DNA from: an uncultured Pseudomonadota bacterium
Lineage (GTDB): Bacteria; Pseudomonadota; Gammaproteobacteria; Steroidobacterales; Steroidobacteraceae
DNA: 37,615 nucleotides
Reading direction: 5' to 3'
Assembly (NCBI GenBank): GCA_903927005.1
Contig: CAIYLH010000117.1
Span: 1-37,615 of the forward strand
Part shown: positions 7,206 through 23,305 of the stretch, one piece after another
Layout: each line of letters begins with the position of its first letter
Numbering within the stretch: the stretch's first letter is position 1
Program-made: the position numbers and the translations under genes
Notes under the pieces: model-generated
What the model saw: only the letters and a program-made list of their open reading frames with translations
Database searches by the model: none
Told to the model about the DNA's origin: nothing

Positions 7206-7223
7206 TCAGTCCTACTCAATTGT
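7206..7223 (-). repeat. guaA 3'-end-like repeat, left border of unit V
   Basis: On the minus strand it reads ACAATTGAGTAGGACTGA against ACGATCGAGTGGGAGTGA in guaA: 14 of 18 positions agree, including a TGA stop in register. It lies in the gap between the DUF3228-like gene and virB3, exactly where gene content changes. It is the most degenerate of the full-length copies, as expected for the oldest scar. Confidence 0.6.
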
Positions 7224-7266
7224 CTTCTGGACGCAACCTATTGTTTTTGCGCATGTAAATTCGCCC

Positions 7267-7662
7267 TCAGAGATACCGACAGAAGACACCGCTGGGGAGC
7301 GAAAGCCGCACCGTGGCGGGCGCCTTGCGACGGCCATGACGATCCGGCAAGTCGAGCAGCAACGGGCTGTAGCTCGCGCCCTTCCAGAACCGGATGCTGC
7401 TGAAGTACGCGAGAAGTCGCGTCTTCGCCCACATCATCAGCAGGTCGAAGAAGCGGGCATCACGCGCGCACAGCAGCATGCAGATGCCGTGGACCGGCAG
7501 CATGATCAGCAGCACCAGCAGGTTCTTCGTCAGGAGGAAGACCTCCATCGTGAAGGCCGCGTTGAGCAGCAGTGCCGCGTACGTCACGCCGAAGCGCATC
7601 GGCGGGCGTGTGACTCCGACGAAGAGCGGATCGGCAGTGACCCCGGCATTGCGCGGTTCCAC
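7267..7662 (-). CDS. virB3: VirB3-like type IV secretion protein (remnant locus)
   Basis: 131 residues. The N-terminal DPLFVGVTRPPMRFGVTYA and the hydrophobic pair that follows (ALLLNAAFTMEVFLLTKNLLVLLIMLPVHGI, split here for description) are classic VirB3, an inner-membrane component of type IV secretion machines. The family's usual end, RFWKGASYSPL, is at about residue 92-102. Some 25 further residues have no family counterpart and run toward the left repeat at 7206. virB4, which normally follows virB3, is absent, so this is the truncated edge of a conjugation locus. It follows virB2 by 12 bp. Probably non-functional alone. Confidence 0.8.
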   Translation of the reverse strand: MEPRNAGVTADPLFVGVTRPPMRFGVTYAALLLNAAFTMEVFLLTKNLLVLLIMLPVHGICMLLCARDARFFDLLMMWAKTRLLAYFSSIRFWKGASYSPLLLDLPDRHGRRKAPATVRLSLPSGVFCRYL

Positions 7663-7674
7663 GGCCGATGCCCC

Positions 7675-7947
7675 CTACACGCCGAACAGGGTCCGAATCC
7701 AGGCCACGATCTGCGGTGCGCCGAAGATCGCTGCGATGCCGATCAGCGCGCCGATGACCCAGCCCCAGGAGATCCGGCCCACGGCGGCAGCGATGGCCAG
7801 TGCGATGACGATCAGCACCGCGACGGGCGTCGCGATCGTCAGGGCAAAGGTCACCAGTGAATTTGCGCCTGTATCGAACGGAGATGCCTGCGCGAAGGCG
7901 GCGCCAGGAGTGAGAAGTGCCGCCGCTGAGGCGAGGCGGACACTCAA
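7675..7947 (-). CDS. virB2: VirB2-like pilin of a type IV secretion system
   Basis: About 90 residues with a signal peptide (LASAAALLTPGAAFAQA), a short periplasmic stretch and two hydrophobic segments (TFALTIATPVAVLIVIALAI and WGWVIGALIGIAAIFGAPQI), the layout of TrbC/VirB2 pilin precursors. The apparent start is TTG at 7945-7947 with GGGGAG about 10 nt upstream; an upstream start in the same frame is possible. It is paired with virB3 in the usual order, but the rest of the secretion operon is missing on both sides. Confidence 0.78.
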   Translation of the reverse strand: MSVRLASAAALLTPGAAFAQASPFDTGANSLVTFALTIATPVAVLIVIALAIAAAVGRISWGWVIGALIGIAAIFGAPQIVAWIRTLFGV

Positions 7948-8086
7948 GCGACGCTGGCTCCCCGATGCCGGCGACGGATTTCGGGGACCGGCGCCGACTT
8001 CCTTCCAGCCCTTCTTTCGCTCTTCTGTGCGTCTCAGTCACGCGACCGTCTTCACCAGCATTCATCAGGCGGTGTGCCAACGCGCC

Positions 8087-8352
8087 ATGTCGCACGGCAA
8101 GTCGTGGGACCTTCAGCCGGGGCTGGAGAACGGCGAGCGGCTGTGCACCGCCTACGAAATCTTCTGCGAGTGGGAGCCATCCGCGGACATGGAATTCGAC
8201 CAGGCCGCGCTGCTGGCGCGGGGGCGGCCAGTTCAGAGGACATCGAGTTGTTCCGATGCCTCCACTGCCAGAGCGCCATGCTGATCGACAAATGGGCGCG
8301 GCGACGCGAAGTCTGTTCGGGTTGCCGGGGTCGGCGCTCTGCTAGTCCCTGA
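8087..8352 (+). pseudogene. Small zinc-ribbon protein broken by a 1-nt frameshift
   Basis: The first half reads from ATG 8087 (MSHGKSWDLQPGLENG...TAYEIFCEWEPSADM...ALLARG). The second half is in the next frame (ASSEDIELFRCLHC...LIDKWARRREVCSGC) and ends at 8352. Adding one G to the GGGGG run near 8220 joins them into a protein of about 88 residues ending in a CxxC...CxxC zinc ribbon. This suggests a single-base loss, a sequencing slip in the homopolymer, or programmed slippage. I do not recognise the family. Its 3' end overlaps the end of the convergent membrane gene by 11 bp. It lies between virB2 and the AbiE locus. Confidence 0.5.
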
Positions 8353-8614
8353 CGAGCACCATCAGCGCGAGGTGGTACAGGGCGGCGAACAGTCCGAACC
8401 CCAGCGCCATGCCGGCGATCTGCAGGAACGGGAAGCGCGGACCCACGGCGGAAAGCTCGAAGGCGACGGCCGCCACCAGACCGAAAACCAGCACGAAGGC
8501 GCAGACGGCGTCCACGACCGGCTTCAGCAGCAGCAGGCCGGCAATCAGCGGGAAAGACACCACTTTCCAAGTCATTCGGGCCGATGCGCCCAGGGCGGGA
8601 TGAATCTGCGCCAT
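8342..8614 (-). CDS. Small membrane protein of unknown function
   Basis: 90 residues from the ATG at 8612-8614, which has a strong GGAGG five bases upstream; an in-frame ATG at 8641 has no such site. There are two long hydrophobic stretches (VVSFPLIAGLLLLKPVVDAV with AFVLVFGLVAAVAF, and LQIAGMALGFGLFAALYHLA) and few charged residues. I do not recognise the family. The gene is divergent from abiEi, and the palindrome at 8645-8665 lies about 30 bp upstream of its start, so the AbiEi regulator might act on both genes. Confidence 0.55.
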   Translation of the reverse strand: MAQIHPALGASARMTWKVVSFPLIAGLLLLKPVVDAVCAFVLVFGLVAAVAFELSAVGPRFPFLQIAGMALGFGLFAALYHLALMVLVRD

Positions 8615-8644
8615 GCCTGCCTCCCAGGTCGGGTACCGCATGAA

Positions 8645-8665
8645 ATAGTCACTAATAGTGACTAT
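8645..8665. promoter_or_regulatory. Operator candidate 1, upstream of abiEi
   Basis: A perfect inverted repeat: two 10-bp arms (ATAGTCACTA and TAGTGACTAT) around one central A. The half-site AGTCAC recurs in the palindrome over the abiEi start codon; the two centres are 72 bp apart, close to seven helical turns. AbiEi-type antitoxins are known to bind paired inverted repeats and repress their own operon, so this is a likely AbiEi site. Confidence 0.6.
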
Positions 8666-8689
8666 AAATCACATTCCATAAACCTCGAC

Positions 8690-8718
8690 TTGTCATTGGT
8701 TTACGGATTGCCTATTTT
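8690..8718 (+). promoter_or_regulatory. Sigma-70-like promoter of abiEi-abiEii
   Basis: TTGTCA (8690-8695), a 17-bp spacer, then TATTTT (8713-8718). The expected transcription start falls at or within a base or two of the abiEi ATG (8726). That implies a leaderless message, consistent with the absence of any purine-rich Shine-Dalgarno there. Operator 2 begins directly after the -10 hexamer, so a bound repressor would cover the start point. Confidence 0.5.
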
Positions 8719-8735
8719 AGTCACCATGGGTGACT
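8719..8735. promoter_or_regulatory. Operator candidate 2, over the abiEi start codon
   Basis: AGTCACC-ATG-GGTGACT: 7-bp inverted arms around the start codon itself, with the same half-site as operator 1. It abuts the -10 hexamer of the inferred promoter. Confidence 0.6.
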
Positions 8736-9547
8736 CAAAAAACGAAAAGCTAAACCGGCTTCTGGAGACCCTTGGGGACACCACCCTCGTCTCCAGCCGG
8801 TGGCTGCGCGCCAACGGATACCCCAGCAATCTGGTCGCCCGCTACATGGCGGGTGGCTGGCTGCAGTCGCCGGCGCGCGGGGTCTACCTCCGCAAGGGCG
8901 GCAAACCGACCTGGGAAGGGCTCCTGCGAGCCCTACAGCGCCTGGAGCAGCTGCCCCTCCACGTCGGCGGCCGATTCGCGCTGGCCCGCCAGGGACATGA
9001 ACACTACCTGCGCCTTGGCGAGTCCGCGACCCTGACCCTGTATGGCCCGGCGAAGCTGCCGGCCTGGGCAAGCAAGCTGCCGCTCCGCGAACGCGTGCAG
9101 GCATGCGGCAAGGGACCGTTCGACTGGCCGGCACTCTCCTTCGGCGCTGACACGCTCGATGGAAACTTGAATGCACAGGGACTCGAACGCGCGGCGGAGG
9201 ACACGAGCGCGGCCGGCGTCGTGTTCTCCACTCCCGAGCGGGCAATACTGGAACTGTGCGACGAGACACCAGACAGCGCGCTGGTGCACGAAGTGAACGC
9301 TCTGATGCAGGGACTCTCCACGCTCCGGCCGCAGTTCGTCAGCGCATTGCTGCAGCACTGCGACAGCATCAAGGCAAAGCGGCTGTTCCTCGCTCTCGCC
9401 GATCGGAATCGCCACGCGTGGCTCGCCCATGTGAGCTTGCAGGACGTGGATCTCGGCAGCGGCAAGCGCGTCCTAGTCCCGGGCGGCAAGCTGAACGCCA
9501 AGTATCAGATAACGCTGCCTGCCGACCTAGATGAACAACTGGGATAA
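8726..9547 (+). CDS. abiEi: AbiEi-family antitoxin/transcriptional repressor (type IV TA)
   Basis: 273 residues from ATG 8726. The N-terminal about 90 residues form a winged-helix-like region (LGDTTLVSSRWLRANGYPSN, then LQSPARGVYLRKGGKPTW). The C-terminal part has the family's VVFSTPERAILELCDETPD and VNALMQGLSTLRPQFVSALL, and ends with a LALADRNRHAWL-type stretch. AbiEi proteins repress their own operon through the N-terminal domain and counteract AbiEii through the C-terminal domain. The gene overlaps abiEii by 17 nt, as is usual for this pair. Two matching palindromes flank its promoter. The longer open frame upstream of 8726 is not used: it would run through the operator and promoter. Confidence 0.88.
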   Translation: MGDSKNEKLNRLLETLGDTTLVSSRWLRANGYPSNLVARYMAGGWLQSPARGVYLRKGGKPTWEGLLRALQRLEQLPLHVGGRFALARQGHEHYLRLGESATLTLYGPAKLPAWASKLPLRERVQACGKGPFDWPALSFGADTLDGNLNAQGLERAAEDTSAAGVVFSTPERAILELCDETPDSALVHEVNALMQGLSTLRPQFVSALLQHCDSIKAKRLFLALADRNRHAWLAHVSLQDVDLGSGKRVLVPGGKLNAKYQITLPADLDEQLG

Positions 9548-10457
9548 CCGCTACGCCGAGCGCGTAAAGCTGCTGGTCGCGATTCTGCCGACGTTGGCGG
9601 AAGAGAAGCGCTTTGCGCTGAAAGGCGGCACCGCGATCAACCTCTTCGAGCACGATCTACCGCGCCTCTCCGTCGACATCGACCTGACCTGGCTGCCCGT
9701 CGGTGATTTCGCGAGCGACATGCGTGATATCTCCGCTGCACTGGAAACCATCGGCGAGCGACTACGCTCCGGACCGCTGCGACTGCAAGTACAGACGAGC
9801 GGAACTGCAGCGACCGGCGTCCATCGCCTGATCGCAAGTCGCAACCGCTCGCGCGTGCAGATCGAGACGACGCCGGTGATGCGGGGTACGGTCCACTCCG
9901 TTCGGACCATGCGCGTACGCCCAGGCGTCGAGCAGAACTTCGGATTCGCCGAGATGCAGGTGCTCGACTTCGCGGACCTCTACGCCGGCAAGCTCTCCGC
10001 CGCACTGTCGCGGCAGCATCCCCGTGACCTCTTCGATCTGCAGCCGCTGCTCGATGAAGGGCGACTCGATGAGCGTCTGTGGCGAACGTTCCTCGTGTAC
10101 CTCACTTGCAGTTCGAAGCCTGCTGCGGAAATGCTGTCGCCGCAGGTGCCCCGCGATTTCGACGAGATCTTCACGGCACATTTCCAGGGTATGACTGCGG
10201 TGCCGGTCACCGCCGCCTCGCTGCTCGAAGTGCGCGCACGACTCCTACGGCGCATCTTGGAATTGCTCGATGCGTCCTCACGCGCATTCCTGGAATCTGT
10301 TGAGCGAGAAACGCCGGACTTCCGCCTCATCGAACTGCCGCATGCCGCTGATCTGCCCGGAGTGCGTCGCAAGCTTGCGAACTTGGGTCAACGCTCCGCC
10401 GCGAAGCGCACTGCCGACTACGAGCAGCTCAAGGACTTTCTTCGCCGCTCGTCATAG
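9531..10457 (+). CDS. abiEii: AbiEii-family nucleotidyltransferase toxin
   Basis: 308 residues from ATG 9531. The nucleotidyltransferase signature is LKGGTAINLF...SVDIDLTW at about residues 27-55: the GG motif followed by the D-x-D metal pair. A second hallmark, FADLYAGKLSAAL...HPRDLFDL at about 145-170, is the K...R-D-x-x-D region of the DUF1814/AbiEii family. Such enzymes arrest growth by modifying nucleic acids (tRNA for several relatives) and abort phage infection. All expected catalytic residues are present. It is translationally coupled to the antitoxin gene. No terminator was recognised after it. Confidence 0.88.
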   Translation: MNNWDNRYAERVKLLVAILPTLAEEKRFALKGGTAINLFEHDLPRLSVDIDLTWLPVGDFASDMRDISAALETIGERLRSGPLRLQVQTSGTAATGVHRLIASRNRSRVQIETTPVMRGTVHSVRTMRVRPGVEQNFGFAEMQVLDFADLYAGKLSAALSRQHPRDLFDLQPLLDEGRLDERLWRTFLVYLTCSSKPAAEMLSPQVPRDFDEIFTAHFQGMTAVPVTAASLLEVRARLLRRILELLDASSRAFLESVERETPDFRLIELPHAADLPGVRRKLANLGQRSAAKRTADYEQLKDFLRRSS

Positions 10458-10630: not shown

Positions 10631-11048
10631 ATGGATACCCGATCGACGAGTGAAGGCCACCCTGACGACAACACCAACGCGCGCATCGCACGATGTCTAC
10701 CTGCCTCGCTGGGTCAACGAGCCTCTCCCCGACCTGCGTGCAATCCTCAGCGCCGGCGAGATCTCGCGCCTGACTCGGCGCCCACGCTGGCTGCTGCTTG
10801 GTCTGGCGGTGCTGGGACGCTTTCCGAAGCAGCGCACTCACTACGGAACGGCGGTCGGCTGGCATCGGGCCGACGTGCTCGACTGGTTGACGCAGCACAT
10901 GACGATTGAGCCCGACCGACCGCTTACTCCGCGAACGTGTCGACAGGCGCGCCCCCGCCAGGCTTGCCTTCCGCTCGAGATCAGCTCGTCTTGCGCAGCG
11001 CACGGCGACATACATCGCCGTCGTTCCGCCCACGGAGAGCAATCGTGA
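10631..11048 (+). CDS. HTH (AlpA/MerR-like) regulator, reading frame doubtful
   Basis: The recognisable part is PDLRAILSAGEISRLTRRPRWLLLGLAVLGRFP...VGWHRADVLDWL, a short helix-turn-helix unit of the kind found in island excision regulators. The ATG at 10631 has a good GAGG 8 nt upstream, but its frame (MDTRSTSEGHPDDNTNARIA) runs into unrelated arginine/proline-rich text. The HTH lies in the next frame, open from before 10605 with only a GTG at 10648 as a plausible local start. One surplus base near 10690 would explain this. The C-terminal 50 residues look random. The stop at 11046-11048 overlaps the GTG of the next gene. Confidence 0.45.
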
Positions 11049-11341
11049 GTTCAAACCCATCGGACCGAACGGACGCAATGGGCTCTACGTGCCAACGGGC
11101 GGTGCGTCGCCGTGAGCTACGCAAAATCGTACCGCTCGCAGACACCACCATCTACGAAATGGAGAAGCGAGGGGAATTTCCGCGGCGCTTCTATCTCACT
11201 TCAAAGTGTGTGGTGTGGGATCTCAACGAAATCGAGCAGTGGCTCACCGCTCGGCGCGCCGCCAGTGTCGCGGGCCGTGTTCGCCGGTCTCCCGAACCTG
11301 ACGTGCGGTGCCGCAAGCAGCGCCCAGTCAGCGCAATCTGA
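11045..11341 (+). CDS. AlpA-family DNA-binding regulator
   Basis: 98 residues from GTG 11045, chosen because GGAGAG lies five bases upstream. The core RRRELRKIVPLADTTIYEMEKRGEFPRRF...VVWDLNEIEQWLTAR is the AlpA/MerR-like HTH unit used by P4-type islands to activate integrase or excision functions. The arginine-rich tail is of unknown use. It shares a GTGA overlap with the preceding HTH gene and is about 600 bp from the 3' end of the convergent integrase, with the PD-(D/E)XK-like gene between. A role in controlling excision of this element is inferred. Confidence 0.75.
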   Translation: MSSNPSDRTDAMGSTCQRAVRRRELRKIVPLADTTIYEMEKRGEFPRRFYLTSKCVVWDLNEIEQWLTARRAASVAGRVRRSPEPDVRCRKQRPVSAI

Positions 11342-11354
11342 TGGTTCCGCGGAG

Positions 11355-11879
11355 TCAGGCCTTCGGTGGTGCCGCAGCCGTAGTTTCAATCAAGGCGACA
11401 ACTCGCGCCCCGAGTTCTCCGGGCAAGCACCTCACGGCACTGTGTCGGTCCTTTGTATTCGGCGCTCGACTACACCGAATGACGTACTTCTTCGCGTCGT
11501 CCGTTATCGTCCCGGCCCGCGCGTACTTCGGCATGTCCGACAACGGGAATATCCATGCCATCGCGATGGCAGACGCGTCCGCCGTCAGCAGGACGAAGAT
11601 GGCGCATGCAGGTCTGTCCCGGTAGGTCGCCTTGCGCAGCTCGAAGTGAACCGTATCCGATCTCTCTGAAGTGCCGGACTTGTTGATCGTTACTGTTCTG
11701 CACTTCACTTGTGCCGGCAATGCCCGACCCGACCGCTTGTCGTAGATGAGCAGGTCGATACCGTCATCGTCCGCAACGGGCTGGAACGCCGATAGGCGTC
11801 CGTCCGTTGTAATCATGCGCATGTTGGCGACGTGATTCTCTGCGATGGCGCCGATCTGTGTGCTCGAAAGTTGTTCCAT
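11355..11879 (-). CDS. PD-(D/E)XK nuclease-like protein
   Basis: 174 residues from ATG 11879, which has GGGGAG at 11887-11892 on its strand; the frame extends upstream but without a better start. The N-terminal half shows the nuclease-fold pattern: GAIAENHVANMRM (Glu), VADDDGIDLLIYDK (Asp), and LPAQVKCRT (Q-x-K). The rest (VHFELRKATYRDRPACAIFVLL...DMPKYA) resembles DUF4365-type proteins. I cannot name the family with confidence. It could be a restriction-like effector; the neighbours AbiE and integrase suggest mobile defence cargo. The start is 57 bp from the integrase 3' end on the same strand. Confidence 0.6.
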   Translation of the reverse strand: MEQLSSTQIGAIAENHVANMRMITTDGRLSAFQPVADDDGIDLLIYDKRSGRALPAQVKCRTVTINKSGTSERSDTVHFELRKATYRDRPACAIFVLLTADASAIAMAWIFPLSDMPKYARAGTITDDAKKYVIRCSRAPNTKDRHSAVRCLPGELGARVVALIETTAAAPPKA

Positions 11880-11936
11880 CGATTGTCTCCCCGTCACGCA
11901 TGCTCGCCTGGAACGCAACTCCAGACTAACAGGCCA

Positions 11937-13193
11937 CTAGGTTAGAGCCTGTGACGCGATTAGCTTCATCGACGACGGGAGCAGTACCGGCGTGTGCGAC
12001 TTTCCGGCCACCCACGCATCAATCATGTCCGCCCACTCCTGCAGCATGTGCCTCCGCTGCTCCGCGTACTGGGCGCGATTGTACGTGCCGCGCGACGAAT
12101 CATTGCGCTCGTGCGCCAGCGCCTTTTCGATCCAGTCACGGTTGAACCCCATCTCGTTCAGGATCGTCGAGCCCGTGCGGCGCAGGTCGTGAACAGTGAA
12201 CATCTCCAGCGGCAGGTTCTCCGCTTTCGCCTTCTCGGCGATTTGCGCAGTAACGCGGTTGAGAGTGCTCGCCGCGATGTGGACATCGGCGTCGTAGCGC
12301 GACGGAAAGACGTACGGCGAGCTTCCGGCCATCAGCTTCAGCGCGGTGAAGATCTCGAGCGCCTGGCGCGACAGATAGACGCTGTGCGGCCGGCGCGCCT
12401 TCATTCGTTCCTTCGGAATCGTCCAGACGGCCTTGTCGAAGTCGATCTCGCTCCAGGTCGCCATTGACAGCTCGCTCTTGCGCACGAGCGTCAGCAGGAT
12501 CATCCGCAGCGCGAGGCGGTGGATGTGGGCAAACGACACCTTGTCGATCAACGTGAAGGCGATGCGGATCTCGTCCGGCGAGAGCGCCCGTTCCCGCGGC
12601 TTGAAAACGGCGATGGAAGTCGGCGCGACCTCGCTGGCCGGGTTCGGAACTTTGTGTCCGTGCAGGTTCGCGAAGTTATAGATCCCCTTCACGATGTCCC
12701 GGACGTGGATGGCCGTCGCGGGCGACCCCCGGTTCTTGATCTTGAGGCAGAGGATACGAACGTCGTCGGACGACACCTCGGACAACAGCCGGTTCGAGAT
12801 TTCGGGCTCAACCTCGCGCCGGTAGATGCCCCGGCGCATCCGGCGGGTGCTCTCGGCCATGGGGCCCTCGTCGAGCCACTTCGTGGCGAACTGCCCCAGG
12901 GTCTCGGCCGCCGCCAGCTGGCGCTTCTCCCGCTGCTTCACCCGGGCCGGCGAATGCCCCTGGGCGAGCGTGTTCCGGGCGGCGATGCACTTCTCCCGGG
13001 CGGCGGACAGGGATAGCCCGGCCGGGCCATAGCGACCCAGGGTGAGGGTCTCGCGCCGATTGCTGATCCGGTAGTCGAACCGGAACGTGATCGTCCCGGC
13101 CGTCGATACCGTCACGTACATCCCGTCCCGGTCCGTCACTTTGTACGGCTTTTCCCCGGGTTTGAGCTTCTTCAGGGCGATGTCGGAAAGCAT
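11937..13193 (-). CDS. P4-type tyrosine integrase (guaA-associated)
   Basis: 418 residues. N-terminal arm-binding (DUF4102) domain: MLSDIALKKLKPGEKPYKV...GMYVTV...YDYRIS-type strand text through SAAREKCIAAR. A SAM-like core-binding domain follows. The catalytic domain has Arg in LVRKSELSMATWSEID, HDLRRTG (H-x-x-R), LAHER and the nucleophilic Tyr in GTYNRAQYAEQRR. All catalytic positions are present and the protein is full length, so it may be active. Translation starts at ATG 13193 with GAGGGGGGG as Shine-Dalgarno; those bases are the end of a guaA-like fragment. It is the only recombinase in the 14.5-kb array. Confidence 0.93.
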   Translation of the reverse strand: MLSDIALKKLKPGEKPYKVTDRDGMYVTVSTAGTITFRFDYRISNRRETLTLGRYGPAGLSLSAAREKCIAARNTLAQGHSPARVKQREKRQLAAAETLGQFATKWLDEGPMAESTRRMRRGIYRREVEPEISNRLLSEVSSDDVRILCLKIKNRGSPATAIHVRDIVKGIYNFANLHGHKVPNPASEVAPTSIAVFKPRERALSPDEIRIAFTLIDKVSFAHIHRLALRMILLTLVRKSELSMATWSEIDFDKAVWTIPKERMKARRPHSVYLSRQALEIFTALKLMAGSSPYVFPSRYDADVHIAASTLNRVTAQIAEKAKAENLPLEMFTVHDLRRTGSTILNEMGFNRDWIEKALAHERNDSSRGTYNRAQYAEQRRHMLQEWADMIDAWVAGKSHTPVLLPSSMKLIASQALT

Positions 13194-13195
13194 GG

Positions 13196-13273
13196 CGGCC
13201 CCCCCTCGATAGTGGCCCGCAGCTCGCCGGAGATGTCGTACACGACGCGCAAAGCGCCAGCGCTCTCGTTAGC
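13196..13273 (-). pseudogene. Remnant copy of the guaA 3' end (att-type repeat beside int)
   Basis: On the minus strand, 75 nt (13273-13199) translate as [16 protein letters not shown] then ELRATIEGG, against [16 protein letters not shown] then KPPATIEWE at the end of the real guaA. My manual alignment gives 58 of 75 identical bases with no gap. Similarity stops abruptly at about 13273. The terminal GAG-TGG-GAG has become GAG-GGG-GGG and sits 3-11 nt upstream of the integrase ATG. Divergence is too high for a recent duplication of the resident gene and suggests an origin in another species' guaA. Confidence 0.85.
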
Positions 13274-13277
13274 AAAC

Positions 13278-13320
13278 GCGGGCGCGCCCCTCCTGTAATT
13301 CAGGCGGCAGACGCGCCCGC
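13278..13320. repeat. Nested inverted repeat beside the guaA remnant
   Basis: A 9-bp perfect stem (GCGGGCGCG at 13278-13286 with CGCGCCCGC at 13312-13320) encloses a 25-nt loop, which itself holds a CCTG-TAATT-CAGG hairpin (13292-13304). It begins 5 bp beyond the remnant and is followed by AT-rich sequence (ACTATATTTGA). It could be a terminator-like structure, or a folded or protein-bound site at the element end. There is no clear U-run. Confidence 0.45.
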
Positions 13321-13369
13321 ACTATATTTGACACTCGCTCAGGGAAAGCCAGTCAAAGACACATGACCG

Positions 13370-14431
13370 TTAGTGGGCCGCCTTGATGCGCTCCAACGCA
13401 CGAGCTTCTATTTCTTCGAGTCCCGCCGGCATCGCGGGGGACCAATGGATGTTCTTGAAGCCTTCCGGAAAGCTATGGAAAAACTGTGCTTTGAGCCTTG
13501 GATCCACCCGCGACAGCGTGCCCTGAACCGCCGTAAAGCTGCCTGTTGATTTGGTAATGCGCGCGGCAATCTCCGGGCGCAGGGTGTAGTTGATCCAGGC
13601 ATAGGCGGCGTCATCATTCTGACCCTTTGCCGCTAGCGCAAAGGTAATCATCCAACCGACTGCCCCGGACTTCGGGTTGACGAAGTGGACGAAGTGATTT
13701 TCGCGATTCAGCTCCCAGCTTGCCGAGTCCCAAAGCAGCGCGGCACTGACTTTGTCGTCACGCATGGCGGCGAACAACTGCGCCTTCGACTCGAAGTAAA
13801 GGTGCAGGTTGGGCTTACACGAGATCAATGTCTGCGCAACTTCATCCATCAGTTGCGCATAGGCTTTTTTGTCGGAATACAGCGCAAAGGGGTCCTTGCC
13901 CAGCCCGAACGCAAACGCGATCAGCGTGTGACGCAGCGCTCGCATCGACGTTTTGTCACGCAGTGCCGGGTTGCACAGATCCATGTAGTCCGTGACCTCC
14001 GCGCGTCGCCTGTTGACGACAATTCCCTGCGCGCCCCACAGGAAGGGAACGCTGTAGAGCTTGCCGTCTATCGTTGTGTTGGCTCTCACGCTTTGCAGTA
14101 ACTCGGGAAAGTATCGATCGCTATGAATCCTCGTGATGTCGATGGGCTTATAGAAGTGATACTGCTGCTGTGCGCCGGTAAGCCGATCCTGCGATGGCTG
14201 AATCAGATCAAATCCGGCGCCACCTGATGCATGTAAACGCGTGATGATGCCCACATCGTCATCCACTGTAACCTCAAGTTCAATTCCCGTTTCCTTGCGA
14301 AAATCCTCAGCCACATCAACCGGCACATAGCTGTCCCAGGTGAGGATGCGCAGCTTATTCACGGCCTGGGCCGAGGCGACCATCGCGAGGCTCCACCCAA
14401 TCGACAGCAGACAGGTATAAACGAGTTTCAA
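13370..14431 (-). CDS. Polyamine-type ABC transporter substrate-binding protein (orphan)
   Basis: 353 residues with a Sec signal peptide (LLSIGWSLAMVASAQA, cleavage near residue 23). The mature start LRILTWDSYVPVDVAEDFRKETGIE, then GAGFDLIQPSQDRL, LYSVPFLWGAQGIVVNR and AAYAWINYTLRPEIAARIT, match the PotD/PotF family that captures spermidine, putrescine or related compounds in the periplasm. No permease or ATPase gene is adjacent; the neighbours are a guaA remnant and a divergent GT51 gene. It may serve a transporter encoded elsewhere, or have a sensing role. The ligand is not predictable here. Confidence 0.82.
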   Translation of the reverse strand: MKLVYTCLLSIGWSLAMVASAQAVNKLRILTWDSYVPVDVAEDFRKETGIELEVTVDDDVGIITRLHASGGAGFDLIQPSQDRLTGAQQQYHFYKPIDITRIHSDRYFPELLQSVRANTTIDGKLYSVPFLWGAQGIVVNRRRAEVTDYMDLCNPALRDKTSMRALRHTLIAFAFGLGKDPFALYSDKKAYAQLMDEVAQTLISCKPNLHLYFESKAQLFAAMRDDKVSAALLWDSASWELNRENHFVHFVNPKSGAVGWMITFALAAKGQNDDAAYAWINYTLRPEIAARITKSTGSFTAVQGTLSRVDPRLKAQFFHSFPEGFKNIHWSPAMPAGLEEIEARALERIKAAH

Positions 14432-14823
14432 CGCAAGACCTCGCGGCGGTTTGATCGATACGCTGAGGTGACCGTCTCAGTCCGGGGAGCCCCCCTGACG
14501 CAGACTGCCACGGAACGGCAGCAGGGCGATACATGCAGCCCGAACGCCTGCTGATAGAACTTCCCCACCGCCGCCCTATCACTGGCCCCGACACGCCCAT
14601 TACGTAGGGACACCTGCGCGCGGCCAGGCGCGACCAACGGCACGAATGAGGAAAAGGGCACCCGCAGCCTCATGGCTATCTCCCCGCCTTATGCGGCCTC
14701 GATTCTGAGGCGCAGCGTCGCTGGCCGAACCCTTGGCCCGGACGGGCGACGTGCAGCCGCCGGCGCCACGCCATCAGCGCCCTAGGCGCGGGATCGGGCT
14801 GTGGCATCCTAGCCTCGCTACAT
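14432..14823. other. Divergent intergenic region in unit IV
   Basis: 392 bp between the binding-protein gene (leftward) and the GT51 gene (rightward). Short open frames here (for example 14428-14673 on the minus strand) show no domain and no clear ribosome site. I see no repeat or strong promoter. Confidence 0.4.
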
Positions 14824-16509: not shown

Positions 16510-16526
16510 TCGAAACCGCCTGCCGC

Positions 16527-16544
16527 CCACTCCCACTCAATAGC
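16527..16544 (-). repeat. guaA 3'-end-like repeat between units IV and III
   Basis: Minus strand reads GCTATTGAGTGGGAGTGG. The 12-mer ATTGAGTGGGAG is identical to the copy at 19550. It lies in the gap between the GT51 stop and the higBA module. Confidence 0.72.
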
Positions 16545-16722
16545 GACGTAGAGCTTTTTCACTTGTAAATATTCGATTTATGCGTGGCGGTCGCCGATGC
16601 GGAACTTTTGTGTAAGCGTTTGAAAACTTCGCCGACAGCGCGGCAAATCTTCCACGTCGAATGCTGACGCTAACCCGCGCAGAGTTGCTCGACGTTAGCG
16701 CGCCATCGCCGCTGAGATGGTC

Positions 16723-17016
16723 CTACGCTGCGGTTAGCTTCGCCACTTCGACTTCGTCAAGGTCGACGCGACCGCGCGCGTTCCACAAGTCGTGCGAATA
16801 CTGCATAGCCAACCAACTCTCAGCGGATCGCCCGAGACACTTTGAAAGACGCAACGCCATCTCAGGCGTGATCCCACTGCGACCTGACAGGATGCGACTG
16901 AGCGTAGACGGTGCAACCGCCAACTTCGCTGCCAGATCACGACCACTGAGCCCATTGGGCTCGAGATAAATCCGCGCGATGAATTCGCCCGGGTGAGGCG
17001 GGTTATGCATAGCCAT
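16723..17016 (-). CDS. higA: HigA-type antitoxin
   Basis: 97 residues: NPPHPGEFIARIYLEPNGLSG is the VapI/HigA signature, followed by a Xre helix-turn-helix (RDLAAKLAVAPSTLSRILSG, ITPEMALRLSKCLG) and SAESWLAMQ. HigA neutralises HigB and represses the operon. It follows higB with a TGATG overlap (the A at 17016 is shared), the reversed toxin-first order typical of higBA. A second ATG two codons inside is an equally plausible start. Confidence 0.9.
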   Translation of the reverse strand: MAMHNPPHPGEFIARIYLEPNGLSGRDLAAKLAVAPSTLSRILSGRSGITPEMALRLSKCLGRSAESWLAMQYSHDLWNARGRVDLDEVEVAKLTAA

Positions 17017-17294
17017 CAGTGATAATCCTCGTAGTCGAGCACGTACGCTTGGCCGTCACGAAACTCGAACGTCAATCGCCAGTTGCCGTTGACCCACACC
17101 GACCAACGCCCCTTTTCGGAACCTTTGAGCGGGTGCAGACGGAATCCCGGCACATCCATATCGTCGATCCGCTGGGACGTTTCGAGCGCGATCAACAGCC
17201 AGCGGAGTCGCGGCGCATGCTTAGGCTGGATTCCCGCAAGGCTCCCGTTCTGATAGAAGCGTCGCAATCCCTTGTGGCGGAAGGACTGGATCAT
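17016..17294 (-). CDS. higB: HigB-type toxin (RelE superfamily)
   Basis: 92 residues with the family pattern: IQSFRHKGLRRFYQNGSLAG, LRWLLIALETSQRIDDMDVPG, FRLHPLKGSEKGRWSVWVN, NWRLTFEF and the terminal LDYEDYH. HigB cleaves mRNA at the ribosome. Full length, with the conserved basic residues and C-terminal Tyr-His present. With higA it forms the entire gene content of the 0.9-kb unit III. The starting ATG is at 17292-17294; upstream there is about 110 bp to the repeat at 17404, which must hold the promoter. Confidence 0.9.
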   Translation of the reverse strand: MIQSFRHKGLRRFYQNGSLAGIQPKHAPRLRWLLIALETSQRIDDMDVPGFRLHPLKGSEKGRWSVWVNGNWRLTFEFRDGQAYVLDYEDYH

Positions 17295-17403
17295 GGAGCG
17301 AACATAGCGCGTTGCGCATCACGAATCAATATCCACCGCCGGCGGCCGCTTGCGATCCGGTCAGCTAAATCCGAGCAGGGGCGGACCTATCGGCCGCGCC
17401 AAG

Positions 17404-17421
17404 CTATTCCCACTCAGTCGT
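17404..17421 (-). repeat. guaA 3'-end-like repeat between units III and II
   Basis: Minus strand reads ACGACTGAGTGGGAATAG, that is Thr-Thr-Glu-Trp-Glu-stop in the guaA register, with a stop codon (TAG) where guaA has TGA. It lies between higB and the Fic remnant. Confidence 0.62.
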
Positions 17422-17469
17422 TAGACCGCATTTAAATCATTGAGTTACGGTCATTGGGAATCTCTCGGG

Positions 17470-17628
17470 GGAACGTCCCGCCACTTCCTGCTCGTCGCGG
17501 GTGGCGAACGCTTTGATGTTCAGCCGCCCCAGCAGCGCTTCCACCTCCCGGTCCGTCAGGCGACTGCCTTCGATGCGCGCGGAAGACCCGATACTCTCGA
17601 TGGTTGCTATGCGCCGCAGTGCGCTAAG
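17470..17628 (-). pseudogene. Fic-family protein fragment
   Basis: On the minus strand about 52 codons read [20 protein letters not shown], then [14 protein letters not shown] and [11 protein letters not shown]. This is the conserved N-terminal inhibitory/helical region of Fic proteins, where (S/T)xxxE(G/N) is the hallmark. The fragment has no start, and family text ends after EVAG near 17475. The catalytic HPFxxGNGR region is absent. Its upstream edge coincides with an 8-bp tandem repeat. Probably debris of a Fic gene once carried by unit II. Confidence 0.6.
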
Positions 17629-17664
17629 GCGCTCAGGCGCTCAGGCGCTCAGGCGCTCAGGCGC
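17628..17664. repeat. 8-bp tandem repeat (GGCGCTCA, about 4.6 copies)
   Basis: Four exact copies of GGCGCTCA followed by GGCGC. It sits at the breakpoint of the Fic fragment and about 200 bp upstream of the amidase start; probably a slippage tract. Confidence 0.9.
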
Positions 17665-17868
17665 AAGGATGCCAAGCGCGCGCCAAGCTCCCTTGAACTC
17701 ATCAAGTTCCGACAGCAGAGCCAGAAGTTGGGGAGTAATCTGGAGGGTATCGGTGTTGGCCGTACCAGAATATATACCGGTTTACACCCGAATAGTCGCC
17801 GGATACGCCGCCTGAATAGACCTTTTTGGTTACACAGGTGCGGCAGTGAACTACCCGCCAAGGTCCTG

Positions 17869-19425
17869 ATGAAAACGAACCGACTGCACCTGATCGCCCT
17901 GCTGTTGTGCTTCACCAACACGGCAGCGCATGCGACCCATACCGACGCATTCGACCTGCAAGAAGCCACGATCGCTTCGCTGCAGGACGCCTTGCGCACC
18001 CATAAAGTCACTTGTCACACCGTGATCGCCGGCTACCTGGCGCGCATCAACGCCTATGACCAACCGACCCGTTTAAATGCACTCGTGCTCGTCAACCCTG
18101 CGGCACTAGTCGATGCAGATCAACTAGATCAGCAGTACCGACGAACGGGGCAATTGCGACCACTACACTGTGTCGGCGTGATTGTGAAAGACAATTACGA
18201 GACCCGAGGCTTGCAGACGACAGCGGGGTCACTGGCCCTGAAAGGTTTCATCCCGACGACAGATGCGGCCATGGTCGAGCGTCTGCGCGCAGCCGGTGCG
18301 GTAGTGCTGGCAAAATCGAATATGGCGGAGTGGGCGTTCTCTCCCTACAAGACGGAAAGTTCGATCGCCGGCATCACGCGCAACCCCTACGCACTCGACC
18401 GTGTCCCAGCCGGCTCCAGCGGTGGCACGGCGGCCGCGGTGGCGGCCAACCTCGGTGCTATTGGTCTGGGCTCGGATACCGGCAACTCCATCCGCGGTCC
18501 CTCCTCACACACCGCCTTGGTCGGTCTGCGTCCTAGTATTGGGCTGACCAGTCGCCGCGGCATCATTCCTTTGTTCGGGCATAACGACGTCGGTGGCCCG
18601 ATGGGCCGCACGGTCGCCGATGTGGCGACTCTGTTGAACGTGGTTGCCGGCGCTGACCCACTGGATCCCGTGACTGCGCATGCCAACGGACAGGTGCCAC
18701 CGGACTACACCCGTTTTCTGGACCGGAATGGATTACGCGGTGCCCGCATCGGGGTCTTCCGCCGCTACCTCGATGCAGCGACCACGGACCCGGAAATCCG
18801 AAGGCTCACGCAGCGTGCCCTCGCCGATCTGGCGGCACAGGGAGCGCAGATTGTCGACCCTTTCGATTTGCCCGACTATGAGAATCTGACCACCACATTG
18901 TGGTGTGGTGATTTCCAGGCCGACGTCGACCATTACCTGGCAACACGGGGGCAAAATGCGCCGTACCATACGCTCGCGAAAATCGTCGCCTCGGGGTTGT
19001 ATCTGCCCTCTATCGAAGCCGACCTGAAGTCGGCACTGCAGCCACCCACCAGCGCCGATGACCGGCGCAGCCCCTGCCCCGATGTCTATACCGATCCACC
19101 GAAGCAGGCGTTTCGTGCTGCACTCCTGCAGGCGATCCAAGCCGCCCACCTCGATGCCATCGTGTATCCGACTTGGTCCAACCCACCGCGCCTGGTCGGC
19201 GACCTAGACAGCCCGGCCGGGGACAACAGCCAGATCCTCTCGCCCCAGACCGGGTGGCCGGCCATTACCGTACCAATGGGGTTTGCCCATGACGCACTAC
19301 CGGCAGGACTGACCTTTCTAGGGCCCGCGTTTAGCGAAGGGAGGCTCATTCGTTATGCGTATGCCTACGAGCAAGCGACCCGGCACCGTCGGCCGCCGGC
19401 CGGCTTTGGGCCGGTGGCATTCTGA
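17869..19425 (+). CDS. Secreted amidase (amidase-signature family)
   Basis: 518 residues from ATG 17869, chosen because it begins a clean signal peptide ([17 protein letters not shown]). The frame is open upstream to 17440 but crosses the tandem repeat and Fic debris. Catalytic triad: Lys in [14 protein letters not shown] (about residue 107), cis-Ser in [17 protein letters not shown], and the nucleophile Ser in [14 protein letters not shown]. The usual GGS is GNS here, as in some secreted relatives. C-terminal [10 protein letters not shown] and [11 protein letters not shown] are also typical. It hydrolyses an amide in the periplasm or outside; the substrate is unknown. It is the only intact gene of unit II. 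Confidence 0.85.
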
Positions 19426-19549
19426 CGAGTACTGGATGCTCTGCGACAGATGTCACCAGAACTAGAAAAAAGGACATTGGGCTGGACGGGTGGTGAGCCA
19501 CCCGAGGCCAGGCTACGCTCAGCGTCAGTTACGGCCGCCTATGACAGCT

Positions 19550-19567
19550 TTGCTCCCACTCAATGGT
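19550..19567 (-). repeat. guaA 3'-end-like repeat between units II and I
   Basis: Minus strand reads ACCATTGAGTGGGAGCAA: Thr-Ile-Glu-Trp-Glu codons intact, stop lost. Best of the non-genic copies. It lies between the amidase and the SEC-C gene. Confidence 0.75.
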
Positions 19568-19621
19568 CTCCGACTGCGGTAAGCCTTTGAAAACAGAAAT
19601 CTTCGCATCGGATCGCTACAC

Positions 19622-19635
19622 TTTTACCGTCAGAA
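19622..19635 (+). repeat. Arm-site-like repeat near the left end of unit I
   Basis: TTTTACCGTCAGAA, identical to 21502-21515 near the other end of unit I. Such short repeats just inside an element end are where tyrosine integrases bind with their N-terminal domain; assignment is by position only. Confidence 0.5.
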
Positions 19636-19699
19636 ACACCGGCATAACATCTCGCTTGTGAGCGATAGTCGCCGATAGAGTTCGAAAGGCCCGGCCGAA

Positions 19700-20614
19700 T
19701 CAGGCTTCTGGGGTACCAGTGAATACGCCTCCAAGACAGCACTTCTTGTACTTCCTGCCGCTCCCGCATGGACAAGGGTCATTGCGCCCTATCTTCGGTG
19801 TTTCGCGGACATACGTTTCCTGAACCTGGCGCTCGTCGTTCCAATCCGCATCGACGGATTCGCGCTGCTGGCGCCGCTGCTCCTCCTCGGCCCAACGCCT
19901 TTGGCGAGCAGCGATCCGCTCCGGTGCATAGAACTTCCACGGATCATCGAAGCGGATCCAGCCTGGTTTGTCCGGACCGGCATACGCGGCCTCGACATCT
20001 TGATGACCAAACACGGCGAATCGGCCTTCCTGCAACGCAGCCACATTCTCCAGCACGGCCCTGTGTGCAGAGCGAGGAAAGTCCAGTAACACGGTGGCAA
20101 GCATCGCGCGGTGATCCTGGTCGTGCAGTTCATTCGAGACCCAATCCGCAGTGCGTGCCAGGCAGGCATCGAGCGCGTCGGACCCGCGCCGTGCGGCGGA
20201 CGCGAGCAAGACTTCCACAGCGTGCCCACGCATATAGGGCTGCGCGTGATGACCCCATGCGAACGCCTCAACATCGGGAATGACAGAATCCGGCTTGTTG
20301 CGGAACAAGGCGGGCCAGTAGCCCGATAGCCACTCCTCGAGGTTTTCATCTTCGCCGCCAGTAAACCGCCGCATGAGGTGGAGCAACAAGCGCCCTGCTG
20401 CTGCGTCATCCATCAAGCCCAGAATGAATGCGGCGTGGAGTCGCAGCCACCAATTGCCATCGCTCTCGCACAAGCTCCAGTCAGCCTCAGACCCAATGAC
20501 TGCACCCAGCGCTTCGACCATCGCGACACCGTGCTGTGCGCACTCATCGATGCGTTCGCGCGGCACGCGATCTTCGTCGCGAATCAGCGATGCGATGAGC
20601 TCGCGCACGTCCAT
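19700..20614 (-). CDS. DUF1186-like protein with C-terminal SEC-C zinc motif
   Basis: 304 residues from ATG 20614. The N-terminal 200 residues are helical, repeat-like text ([58 protein letters not shown]) resembling DUF1186. A charged stretch ([17 protein letters not shown]) follows, and then the terminal [19 protein letters not shown], the zinc-binding SEC-C motif also found at the end of SecA. In SecA this motif contacts SecB. The gene starts 13 bp after the PemK-like toxin gene on the same strand, so it is probably the third gene of that operon. Function unknown; a chaperone-linked role in the TA module is conjecture. Confidence 0.75.
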
Positions 20615-20627
20615 CAGCCCGCCGTGC

Positions 20628-21068
20628 CTACAACAACCCCGCCACAACGGCGGCGGCACGGAAACGAGTCAGCAGACTGGGATGCAAGGTTCCCAGGCGC
20701 GGCAGCAGCCCGTGCGGTGCGGCGGGCGGCGTGGCGAACCAGTCATGCGTGTAAGGCAGCAACACCCGCTCGCGCAAATTGAATTTCGTCGGGAAGCTCA
20801 GACCCGATAGTTTGTAGGCTGCCGATTCCGCGGCTGTGATTGCGAACTCGCCGGAGAACAACTCGCCTACGCGTTGAGAGGTGCCATACGCAACAAGGAC
20901 GCGATAGAGCGGCGCCTCAGCGTCGTCAACAGTGATCGCCAGGGCCGGCCTGTGCTTGGGCCCCGGGTTTAGAGCCTTGTTCTCCGGGAATGCGCACCAA
21001 AGTATGTCACCCGCGGAAGGCATCCCCCAGCGCGGATCTGTCGCTGCGCCAGGGGCAGAGCCAGTCAC
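20628..21068 (-). CDS. PemK/MazF-like toxin
   Basis: 146 residues. The core [15 protein letters not shown]...[29 protein letters not shown] and [22 protein letters not shown] follows the PemK/MazF fold pattern: G-D-I-W start, R-P-A-L strand, a V-A-Y-G-T-S-Q strand and a terminal conserved strand. Members cut RNA. It overlaps the upstream gene by 4 nt (ATGA at 21065-21068), the usual antitoxin-toxin coupling. The C-terminal 30 residues are alanine/leucine-rich. I am fairly sure of the fold and less sure of toxicity. Confidence 0.7.
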
Positions 21069-21418
21069 AGCAATGTCGAACTGATCGAGCGGACTTCCTG
21101 ACGACCGGCAAGCCGGCGGATTGTCGCAAGTTGCTGCGCAGTGAGCGGCCCGTCGTCGGGTTCGTAGGCAGGCAGAACGCTGTCGGCCAGACGCCGTAGC
21201 GCAACGTGCACGACCTGTGTCTCGTTGAGATTCAGTTCCGCAGCAAGCTTGCGCATGGTGCTGCGGGTGACGCCGAACATTCCGTCACGGCCGCGAAAGC
21301 TCACCAGAAGTTTCTTGCCCTCCTCAGAACCACTCACCTTGGGAACGGACGTCCCAGACAACGAACCAGCGTGCTTGCCGGACGTCTTGCGCTTGCTGCG
21401 AACGTGGTTGGTGCTCAT
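21065..21418 (-). CDS. Putative antitoxin of the PemK-like toxin
   Basis: 117 residues. A basic, serine-rich N-terminus (STNHVRSKRKTSGKHAGSLS) is followed by GMFGVTRSTMRKLAAELNLNETQVVHVALRRLA, which could form a ribbon-helix-helix or similar DNA-binding unit. I do not recognise a named family. Its role is inferred from position (first gene, 4-nt overlap with the toxin) and from the inverted repeat just upstream. The start ATG at 21416-21418 has AGGGGA upstream on its strand. Confidence 0.6.
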   Translation of the reverse strand: MSTNHVRSKRKTSGKHAGSLSGTSVPKVSGSEEGKKLLVSFRGRDGMFGVTRSTMRKLAAELNLNETQVVHVALRRLADSVLPAYEPDDGPLTAQQLATIRRLAGRQEVRSISSTLL

Positions 21419-21435
21419 CGCAATTCCCCTGCCTG

Positions 21436-21456
21436 GATATATACAAACTATATATC
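21436..21456. promoter_or_regulatory. Operator/promoter candidate of the PemK-like operon
   Basis: GATATATA-CAAAC-TATATATC: perfect 8-bp inverted arms with a 5-nt spacer, about 20 bp upstream of the antitoxin ATG. The AT-rich arms contain -10-like TATATA hexamers on the minus strand, so a bound antitoxin would block the promoter. Confidence 0.55.
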
Positions 21457-21464
21457 ACATACGC

Positions 21465-21524
21465 TGACGGTAAAACTCCTCCATCCTCACGAGCGACATG
21501 TTTTTACCGTCAGAATTACCGTCA
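21465..21524. repeat. Cluster of TTTTACCGTCA-type repeats at the right end of unit I
   Basis: TTTTACCGTCA occurs in minus orientation at 21465-21475 and in plus orientation at 21502-21512 (14-nt match with 19622-19635 including the following GAA). A shorter copy TTACCGTCA is at 21516-21524. They lie 170-250 bp from the guaA end, a plausible position for integrase or excisionase arm sites. Confidence 0.5.
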
Positions 21525-21694
21525 AAAGCAATGCGTTGACCGAGCGGCGCAGTACGCAACAGCAGGTGGAATGTGTTTTTAAATCCGCCACTAGACACGC
21601 CATTCATCCCGCGGAAAGTATTGGGGATTACTCGTGCCCGGAGCATCGTAAGCAACTGATTTATAAAGGCAATAAGAACCAGCCGAAATCCCTC

Positions 21695-23305
21695 TCACTC
21701 CCACTCGATCGTAGCGGGCGGCTTGCCGGATATGTCGTAAACGACGCGCGAGACGCCGGCGATCTCGTTGACGATTCTCAGACTGACCTTCTCGAGCAGC
21801 TCATACGGCAGCCGCGCCCATCGCGCAGTCATGAAGTCGATGGTTTCGACTGCGCGGATCGCGATTACCGGCGCATAGCGGCGGCCGTCACCGGTGACCC
21901 CGACCGACTTCACCGGCAGGAACACCGCAAACGCCTGGCTGGTCTTGTCGTACCAACCAGCGCGGCGTAGTTCCTCAATGAAGATGTGGTCGGCCAGACG
22001 CAGCGTGTCGGCAGCATCCTTGGTGACCTCACCGAGGATGCGCACGCCAAGCCCCGGTCCCGGGAACGGGTGCCGGTAGACCATCTCACGCGGCAGGCCG
22101 AGCTCTACACCCAGGCGCCGAACCTCGTCCTTGAAAAGTTCGCGCAGCGGCTCGACGAGCTTGAGCTTCATATGCGCCGGTAGGCCGCCGACGTTATGGT
22201 GGCTCTTGATCAGGTGCGCCTTGCCGGTCTTGGCGCCCGCCGACTCGATCACGTCCGGGTAAATCGTGCCTTGCGCGAGGAACTCCACACGCGATCCTGC
22301 CGCGCCGGTGATCTTCTGCGACTCCTCGTCGAAGACCTCGATAAACAGGCGCCCGATCACCTTACGCTTCGCCTCAGGGTCGGTAACACCGGCGAGTTCG
22401 CCGAGGAAGCGCGCCTCCGCATCGACCCGAATCACCTTGACGCCGAGGTTCTTGTCGAACACCTGCATCACCTGGTCGCCCTCGTGATGGCGCAGCAGCC
22501 CGTGATCCACGAACACGCAGGTAAGCTGGTCACCGATTGCACGATGCAGGAGCGCTGCGACCACGCTTGAGTCGACGCCACCGGACAAGCCCAGCAGCAC
22601 GTTCGCCGAGCCCACCTGGCTGCGGACGCGTGCGATCGCGTCGGCAATGATGTTGCCCGAACTCCACGAGTCGCCGCAGCCGCAGATCTCGTGGACGAAC
22701 CGCGAATAGATCCGCTCGCCCTGGGTCGTGTGCGTGACCTCGGGATGAAACTGCAGCCCGTAGTAGCGTCGCGCCTCGTCGGCGATGCCGGCAACGGGCA
22801 CGTCGGGGGTCGAGGCGATAATCTTGAAGCCAGGTGGCACCGCAACGACACGGTCACCGTGGCTCATCCAGACGTCGAGCAGTCCGTGGCCCTCTTCGTT
22901 GACCCGATCCTCTATGTCGCGCAGCAGCTCGGAGTGTCCGCGCGCGCGCACCTCTGCATAGCCAAATTCCTTCGAGTCGTGCGGCTCGACGCGACCGCCT
23001 AGCTGGTGAGCCATCGTCTGCAGGCCGTAGCAGATGCCGAGCACCGGCACTGCCAGCTCCCAGACTGCAGGCTGCGCCCGCGGCGTGCCCGCAACGGTGA
23101 CGGTTTCGGGCCCGCCGGAGAGGATGATGCCCATCGGCGCGAACGCACGGATGTCGGCATCGGTCATGTCCCACGGGTGCAGCTCGCAATAGACCCCAAG
23201 CTCACGTACCCGCCGCGCGATCAGCTGCGTGTACTGCGAACCGAAGTCAAGGATCAGGATCCGGTGGGCATGGATGTCAGCAGTCTTCACGGCACGCTCA
23301 GTCAT
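21695..23305 (-). CDS. guaA: GMP synthase (glutamine-hydrolysing)
   Basis: 536 residues converting XMP to GMP with glutamine and ATP. Class I amidotransferase domain first: [17 protein letters not shown], the nucleophile Cys in [17 protein letters not shown], and His-Glu in [11 protein letters not shown]. Then the ATP-pyrophosphatase P-loop [17 protein letters not shown] (about 240), and the C-terminal dimerisation region ending [15 protein letters not shown]. It follows guaB by 3 nt, forming the guaBA operon. Its last 18 bp (21695-21712) are the repeated target of the accessory array; the gene itself is intact and in frame to its normal end. Confidence 0.98.

Follow-up and report, generated by a model that had tools for sequence, protein, structure and literature searches.

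Arrays of gene units without an integrase behind guaA in an uncultured Steroidobacteraceae bacterium and its relatives

Introduction

Degenerate copies of the end of a gene that recur behind that gene raise the question of whether the DNA between them was collected there, and by what means. We analyzed a contig of 37,615 nucleotides from an uncultured bacterium of the family Steroidobacteraceae (CAIYLH010000117.1, assembly GCA_903927005.1; hereafter the window), in which guaA, the gene for GMP synthase, lies on the minus strand (21695–23305) and is followed by copies of its last 18 bp. GMP synthase was reportedly recognized as a hotspot of genomic islands in a paper of 2012. The original prediction, made from the sequence of the window, described five tandem gene units delimited by such copies, with only one integrase, and regarded guaA as a place where units that lack an integrase accrete. 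This observation is partly confirmed. The window holds an array with four guaA-end copies on one strand, such arrays are a trait of the family, and the units are probably miniature cassettes resembling cis-mobilizable elements (CIMEs), which integrases of guaA islands would move in trans.

Results

All six strings on which the array had been based, that of guaA and its five copies, were verified at their positions on the minus strand. The attachment core at the guaA stop (ACGATCGAGTGGGAGTGA, 21695–21712) recurs at 19550, 17404, 16527, 13196 and 7206 with 4, 5, 4, 6 and 4 mismatches to guaA, respectively, and the copies at 19550 and 16527 do have an exact 12-mer, ATTGAGTGGGAG, in common. On its own within the window, the 18-mer gives a moderate signal. 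At up to 4 mismatches the minus strand gave four matches, one of them guaA itself, and the plus strand none, where 0.375 are expected on both strands; at up to 5 mismatches there were five against 3.4 expected, and at up to 6, the level of the 13196 copy, 22 against 23 expected.

We take the core centre, ATYGAGTGGGA, and not the 18-mer as the decisive sequence evidence for the array. It has three exact matches in the whole 3.99-Mb genome, at window positions 16531, 19554 and 21699, with none on the opposite strand and none for the reversed control. The original prediction had named similar matches elsewhere in the genome and on both strands as the finding that would speak against it; the genome-wide matches of the centre all lie in this array and on one strand. 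A pattern fitted to the sites and therefore partly circular, ACNAYYGAGTRGGA, has four exact genome matches, all in the array. The attachment cores of the window are placed on the minus strand at 19550–19567 (site a), 17404–17421 (site b), 16527–16544 (site c) and 7206–7223 (site e). The junction at 13196 had been misread as a fifth core: its 6 mismatches are at the chance level, and it is a degenerate guaA 3' tail of about 70 bp (13201–13270, minus strand, 77% identical to guaA of genomes G183 and G005) fused to an integrase leader.

To place the array in its lineage, 217 genomes of the family were searched with the core pattern, which matched in 176 of them, mostly once, and the reversed control gave three matches in total. 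At least two matches were present in 49 genomes; the richest hold 9–10 cores (G009 ten, G119 nine). All 40 contigs with at least two matches carry them on the same strand, among the matches listed. The two matches of G013 belong to two guaA genes (G013:C14 and G013:C42), 72% and 66% identical to that of the window, each with a core at its end. Downstream of guaA in 20 relatives (20 of 60, mostly taken before the motif scan), 15 further cores with at most 2 mismatches were found in six, all in the orientation of guaA and 0 reversed; two of the 15 are probably due to chance, and the window contributes four more. In these 20 loci, several of which are very short, no clean empty site was found in which guaA is directly followed by DUF3228, a check that had been proposed; DUF3228 was present in G014 and G035, in or beyond the arrays, and in G006.

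Cutting between consecutive cores yielded 66 units of 458 bp to 18.9 kb. They are not a random sample, since the loci were mostly picked for at least two cores, and weak cores (G009 778, G023 3009 and G009_C165 6640) were omitted. Units as small as 0.9 kb had been expected, and those of the lineage go down to 0.46–0.7 kb. Among nine array genomes scanned, the integrase domain PF00589 was found once in the array of G119 and once in the window, and was absent inside the arrays of G008, G009, G014, G003, G016, G118 and G164. Judged by sequence, the array is a trait of the family.

Alignment at the right ends showed that units from different genera, although their cargo is unlike, share a conserved sequence of about 120 bp in front of the core, here called the type A arm. 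Forty-four arms, chosen because an arm was visible, align over 126 columns (alignment A1). The arm model built from them, R1, matches in 60 of the 217 family genomes; of 370 genomes sampled across the class, 14 match, counting that of the window. In both sets some matches are partial ones to integrase leaders. No conserved hairpin or other fold was found in the 44 arms (0 consensus pairs). The model excludes the core except for its first two bases, and it was also applied to loci outside model building. Among the 42 held-out arm matches reaching model position 105, 26 have a core with at most 2 mismatches at offset 0. The table of held-out matches comprises 52 of 64, omitting six duplicates from overlapping loci and six short matches, three of which copy one place.

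The arms contain a repeat pair, CGGT-N8-CGGT, a motif picked after the arms were seen. In 36 of the 66 units it begins precisely 91 bases ahead of the final base, and its density, 0.043 per kb in unit interiors, rises to 3.84 per kb within the last 150 bp of units; it also occurs in the first 320 bp of ten units. Some units without the pair at their right end terminate in a guaA tail or in another arm. The pair with the same 12-bp step is present in 56 of 80 leaders of related integrase genes and at the end of an integrase-bearing island in G598. We read it as a putative arm-binding site of the integrase, and its presence in arms, leaders and the G598 island end would tie the units without an integrase to this integrase family.

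In the window, a type A arm forms the right end of unit 1 (19566–19684, minus strand; R1 71.8 bits, E 2e-20). It is one of the 44 arms from which R1 was built, and BLAST matched it to arms of G014, G118, G119, G155 and G164. The integrase island has a degenerate type A arm at its right end (7256–7307, minus strand; R1 E 4.5e-4), and unit 1 has a weak arm-repeat match at its left end (21485–21528, minus strand; R1 positions 38–81, E 1.5e-4). At 17404 the arm-model search found no type A arm, and the evidence for this site is its core. Because only site 19550 keeps a good arm, the present-day mobility of the other units of the window is doubtful.

Other kinds of unit end were also observed. Units of a second class end in the last 70–160 bp of guaA (L047 in G026:C44, L077, L093, L083 and L084), and guaA tails of about 70–160 bp were found at unit ends in G026, G236, G171, G211 and G223. 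Their appearance suggests a cut within guaA by a different integrase, with displacement of the guaA tail. By eye only, a type B arm with AGATACCCG repeats before the core was recognized in G014, G009 and G119 (L036 16825–16944, L038 15244–15363 and L060 793–912), and perhaps at window position 17404. One type B unit of G119 contains a weak integrase match.

Comparison between species indicated that units travel singly. A unit encoding YoeB/YefM (Pfam) spans 722 bp between its cores and is 98.75% identical throughout in G014 and G009, whereas the guaA loci of these two genomes share 79.7% identity. The order of this unit and most of another (2.1 kb, 96%) is swapped, the YoeB/YefM unit coming first in G009 and second in G014. 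Between genera with guaA at 75.8%, a Fic unit reaches 95.6% identity over 1254 bp, and a third common unit is 87.9% identical over 1582 bp against 71.5% for guaA. From these alignments, at least three units have moved between species as units. For the lineage, the proposal that guaA is an accretion site for units lacking an integrase is thus supported, except for the junction at 13196. The GT51 gene of the window occurs alone in G008, flanked by two cores at a distance of 1768 bp; the DNA there matches the window at 86.6% identity, starting within site 16527, 3 bp into that core. In G237, G107 and G169, no same-strand core was found near GT51 in the stretches examined.

The cargo comprises single genes, toxin-antitoxin pairs and others. 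The scan covered 106 of 129 open reading frames (ORFs) plus higA, and among the Pfam families listed for these 107 cassette ORFs were Fic (7), HigB-like (6), AbiEii (5), ParE (2) and PIN (2). Integration and transfer genes were absent among the 25 of 62 Pfam families listed. PADLOC identified SoFic in 7 cassette ORFs and several candidate defence families. Cassettes are often of the toxin-antitoxin or defence type, and our impression is that they are enriched in such genes. By eye, the large cassettes of G008, G035, G136 and G164 encode TonB receptors, PepSY-type membrane proteins, oxidoreductases and a transposase, and no integrase-like ORF was seen in them.

The single integrase of the original prediction was borne out, as the contig has one PF00589 match, a tyrosine integrase of the guaA-island family (11937–13193, minus strand; Pfam). 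In its relatives, the integrase starts 305–340 bp behind a core, with TGACGGTA repeats in between; the core was present in 41 of 44 loci compared. A core-like 18-mer lies at most 420 bp upstream in 75 of 80 relatives, and 78 of 80 have at least two TGACGGTA on either strand (the first leader comparison took in 41 of the 80 integrase loci, later leader counts all 80). The integrase of the window lacks the leader of about 330 bp and the left arm of its relatives, and the 70-bp guaA tail abuts its start codon. It may not serve its own element, because left arm and leader are lost. Our guess is that the tail at 13196 stems from an element of another class, one that inserts about 72 bp upstream of the guaA stop and leaves a displaced tail, as in G026, G236, G171, G211 and G223; it would have landed in the space separating guaA from the older island.

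Downstream of the integrase, the island carries a DUF4365-like ORF below the Pfam cut-off (11355–11918, minus strand), a candidate AlpA-family excisionase (10937–11341, plus strand; PF05930, 2.6e-12), AbiEi/AbiEii (8642–10457, plus strand; 86.7% identical to the G598 island copies) and part of a transfer operon consisting of virB3-like and virB2-like genes and a small ORF (7267–8641, minus strand). The virB3 match is below the NCBIfam cut-off, and virB2 was named by a 94% match beside virB3 in G598 and by eye. The predicted five units are better described as about four units without an integrase and, as the fifth, a compact integrase island without its left arm. By sequence, the integrase segment belongs to the guaA-island family.

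Both ends of a related island were found in G598:C11. One side has the guaA-end core, the left arm and an integrase 93.8% identical to that of the window; the far end has AbiE (86.7%), virB2, virB3, a type A right arm of about 120 bp and a core, and the distance from core to core is 42.3 kb. The window matches both end regions without the intervening 32.6 kb. The DUF4365-like ORF is followed by these 32.6 kb of other DNA in G598, by about 10 kb in G183 and by none in G203. A derivation of the window from a G598-type island by deletion was not borne out, as G203 joins the integrase and the following genes in the same way as the window does. Nor did the ORF scan bear out the G598 island as an intact integrative and conjugative element (ICE), there being no relaxase among 19 ORFs scanned. 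A full set of conjugation genes with a relaxase, as an ICE would have, was found neither in the window, with only its virB2/B3-like genes, nor in G598, which adds a partial VirB4. The other ORFs scanned in G598 encode transporters, reductases and peptidases, and the 32.6-kb middle (L306–L308), inserted at a point where nothing intervenes in G203 and the window, contains repeated genes for aldo-keto reductase, SDR, S15 peptidase and efflux.

On plasmid p1UC20804, an integrase 58.5% identical to that of the window adjoins trb genes. A 3975-bp record, NZ_CP155767.1 (L228; plasmid p5 of Sphingomonas parapaucimobilis), carries guaA, a guaA-type integrase and alpA and nothing else; this may be either a circle or an artefact of assembly.

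Discussion

We consider it likely that the units are miniature CIME-like cassettes moved in trans by the integrases of guaA islands, a reading that would include an excision circle, action in trans and a benefit from the cargo. The guaA 3' end is the attachment site of a family of islands that encode a tyrosine integrase together with an AlpA-like helper, and some of these islands may be conjugative. The tandem units retain only the attachment sequence of the islands, that is, the core GAGTGGGA, a right arm with CGGT-N8-CGGT and sometimes left-arm repeats, in addition to their cargo. Acting on two cores, the integrase of a visiting or resident island could release the unit between them as a circle, and the excised unit could then be inserted at a core next to guaA in a single orientation.

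Precedent comes from GIsul2, whose integrase excises and integrates both its island and an adjacent att-bounded unit, CR2-sul2, with the help of AlpA (PMC9376610). Since an integrase of this type has been proven to do so, the best inference by analogy is that guaA islands can move units in trans. The GIsul2 integrase is 52% identical to that of the window. The two systems agree in the guaA 3' end as target, the core GAGTGGGA, three att sites, the integrase with AlpA, and an adjacent unit that lacks its own integrase and is moved by that of the island. They differ in that GIsul2 is accompanied by one such unit, which carries a transposase and a resistance gene, whereas the present units are numerous, mostly free of mobility genes, and form arrays across the family. 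In addition, TGACGGTA is absent upstream of the GIsul2 integrase on pAB3.

The closest known kinds are CIMEs and additive islands at tRNA genes. CIMEs likewise lack integration and transfer genes, which they have lost, but retain attL and attR and stand in tandem at one target gene (PMC5704250). They are described as decayed ICEs or integrative and mobilizable elements (IMEs), while the present units go down to 0.46 kb and some are common singly to different genera. Some of our units have a core and type A arm like those that close the G598 island on its far side, and others have different ends; the arms are shared with integrase-bearing islands. In Ca. Methylopumilus, repeats of the last 20 bp of tRNA-Lys similarly mark an extendable island, of 330 bp to 42 kb, but the target is a tRNA and the portion of the description available names no attachment arm or cognate integrase (PMC10872708). 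Tycheposons also differ in having a tRNA target instead of guaA. What seems new here is the single-gene size and number of the units, the island arm on units without an integrase, and single-unit transfer between genera. No description of such guaA cassettes was found in the open-licence literature.

Several observations weigh against movement in trans by guaA-island integrases. An integrase at least 58% identical to that of the window was found in 9 of the 217 family genomes, the window's included, with at most 8 candidates per genome scored, against 60 that match the arm model, and G009, G119, G118, G130 and G164 have none at this level. This rarity is weak counter-evidence, because metagenome-assembled genomes often lose mobile DNA. 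Sixteen of the 42 held-out arms have no good core, several retaining just its first 8 bases, and CGGT-N8-CGGT is missing from the last 150 bp of 28 of the 66 units. Excision circles were not seen, and one arm compared with plasmid and phage records gave no match. Of the 29 long ORFs listed for the G598 island, a few of which lie at its edges, the 19 scanned include a partial VirB4-like protein as well as metabolic cargo, with no relaxase. Finally, G444, outside the family, has two armed cores head-on to guaA (L310, G444:C80; 4155, 5622 and 5803), an array for which the simple model offers no explanation.

The units might instead be passive wreckage, the decayed remnants of islands that integrated separately in tandem and no longer move singly. 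We regard this as rather unlikely. It would fit the missing left arm of the window's integrase island and the small number of genomes holding the integrase, and formation of CIMEs by decay of tandem elements is a published route (PMC5704250). Yet units of 0.7–1.6 kb are common to species at 88–99% identity, with guaA at 71–80%, and one occurs in swapped order; these units were already small when they moved.

Shuffling of units by homologous recombination between guaA ends or arms would require no integrase. The guaA tails of about 70–160 bp that end some units, and arms that are about 70–90% alike, offer substrates for it. It is nevertheless improbable, as the 722-bp unit is common from core to core between unlike flanks, and the fixed spacing from repeat pair to core, with the pair at both ends of integrase islands, points to integrase binding.

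An integron with unusual attC sites is a far less probable source, even though the arrays contain toxin-antitoxin pairs and an integron-type integrase exceeds the curated cut-off in four of ten array genomes: the window's G000 (G000:C129:92239–93174), G008 (G008:C31:2493–3413), G164 (G164:C6:561–1502) and G016 (G016:C62:251–1189). All four genes lie on contigs other than those of the arrays, the remaining six genomes, including the rich G009, G119 and G130, have none over the cut-off, the 44 arms show no attC-like fold, and the target is the guaA end. As the mover of these units, an integron integrase is no better candidate than that of the guaA islands. Integron arrays of Alteromonas do resemble the present ones in their small serial cassettes and toxin-antitoxin pairs (12% of genes there), but they are based on intI and attC sites (PMC4119200), in contrast to the island-type arm without a conserved fold found here. 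Chance repetition of a conserved guaA 3' end, which would suit the 18-mer score of site 13196, is refuted for the array as a whole by the genome-wide counts, the strand bias, the arms and the units shared across species.

Movement of the units by guaA-island integrases would link a known trick, the transport of a neighbour by GIsul2 and the accretion of CIMEs, to a wide collection of small cassettes in Steroidobacter relatives. If the cassettes move in trans, guaA would be a fixed address for sampling and exchanging such genes without an integron, and arm and core alone would suffice for finding new cassettes. We judge evenly balanced the broader proposal that this is a second gene-cassette system beside integrons, in which miniature elements, each an island att site joined to one gene or to a toxin-antitoxin or defence module, are collected and reshuffled in a single orientation behind guaA family-wide by integrases that passing guaA islands supply in trans, the island integrase corresponding to IntI and guaA to attI.

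Other features of the window

No tRNA was found in the window. Unit 1 (19568–21694, minus strand) contains two small ORFs (21065–21418 and 20628–21068) and a SEC-C protein (19700–20659; Pfam SEC-C), all on the minus strand. The small ORFs had been called a PemK-like operon, a resemblance seen by eye only; they have no Pfam match even at E 10, and a PDB sequence search with the 146-aa ORF gave one match at the chance level. A relative of the SEC-C gene lies directly behind a guaA end in G232. Unit 3 (16545–17403, minus strand) encodes the toxin HigB (17016–17294; PF05015, 3.6e-23) and the antitoxin HigA (16723–17016; TIGR02607, 2.6e-29). Unit 4 (13271–16526), whose edge is site c, carries the GT51 transglycosylase (14824–16509, plus strand) and a solute-binding protein (13370–14431, minus strand).

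Unit 2 (17422–19549) encodes an amidase on the plus strand (Pfam Amidase, 1.8e-88). At its right end, positions 17477–17822 on the minus strand are a truncated piece of a Fic cassette present in G155 and G009 (82% identical over 346 bp to the G155_C26 unit). Because of this remnant, one more unit was probably once located here.

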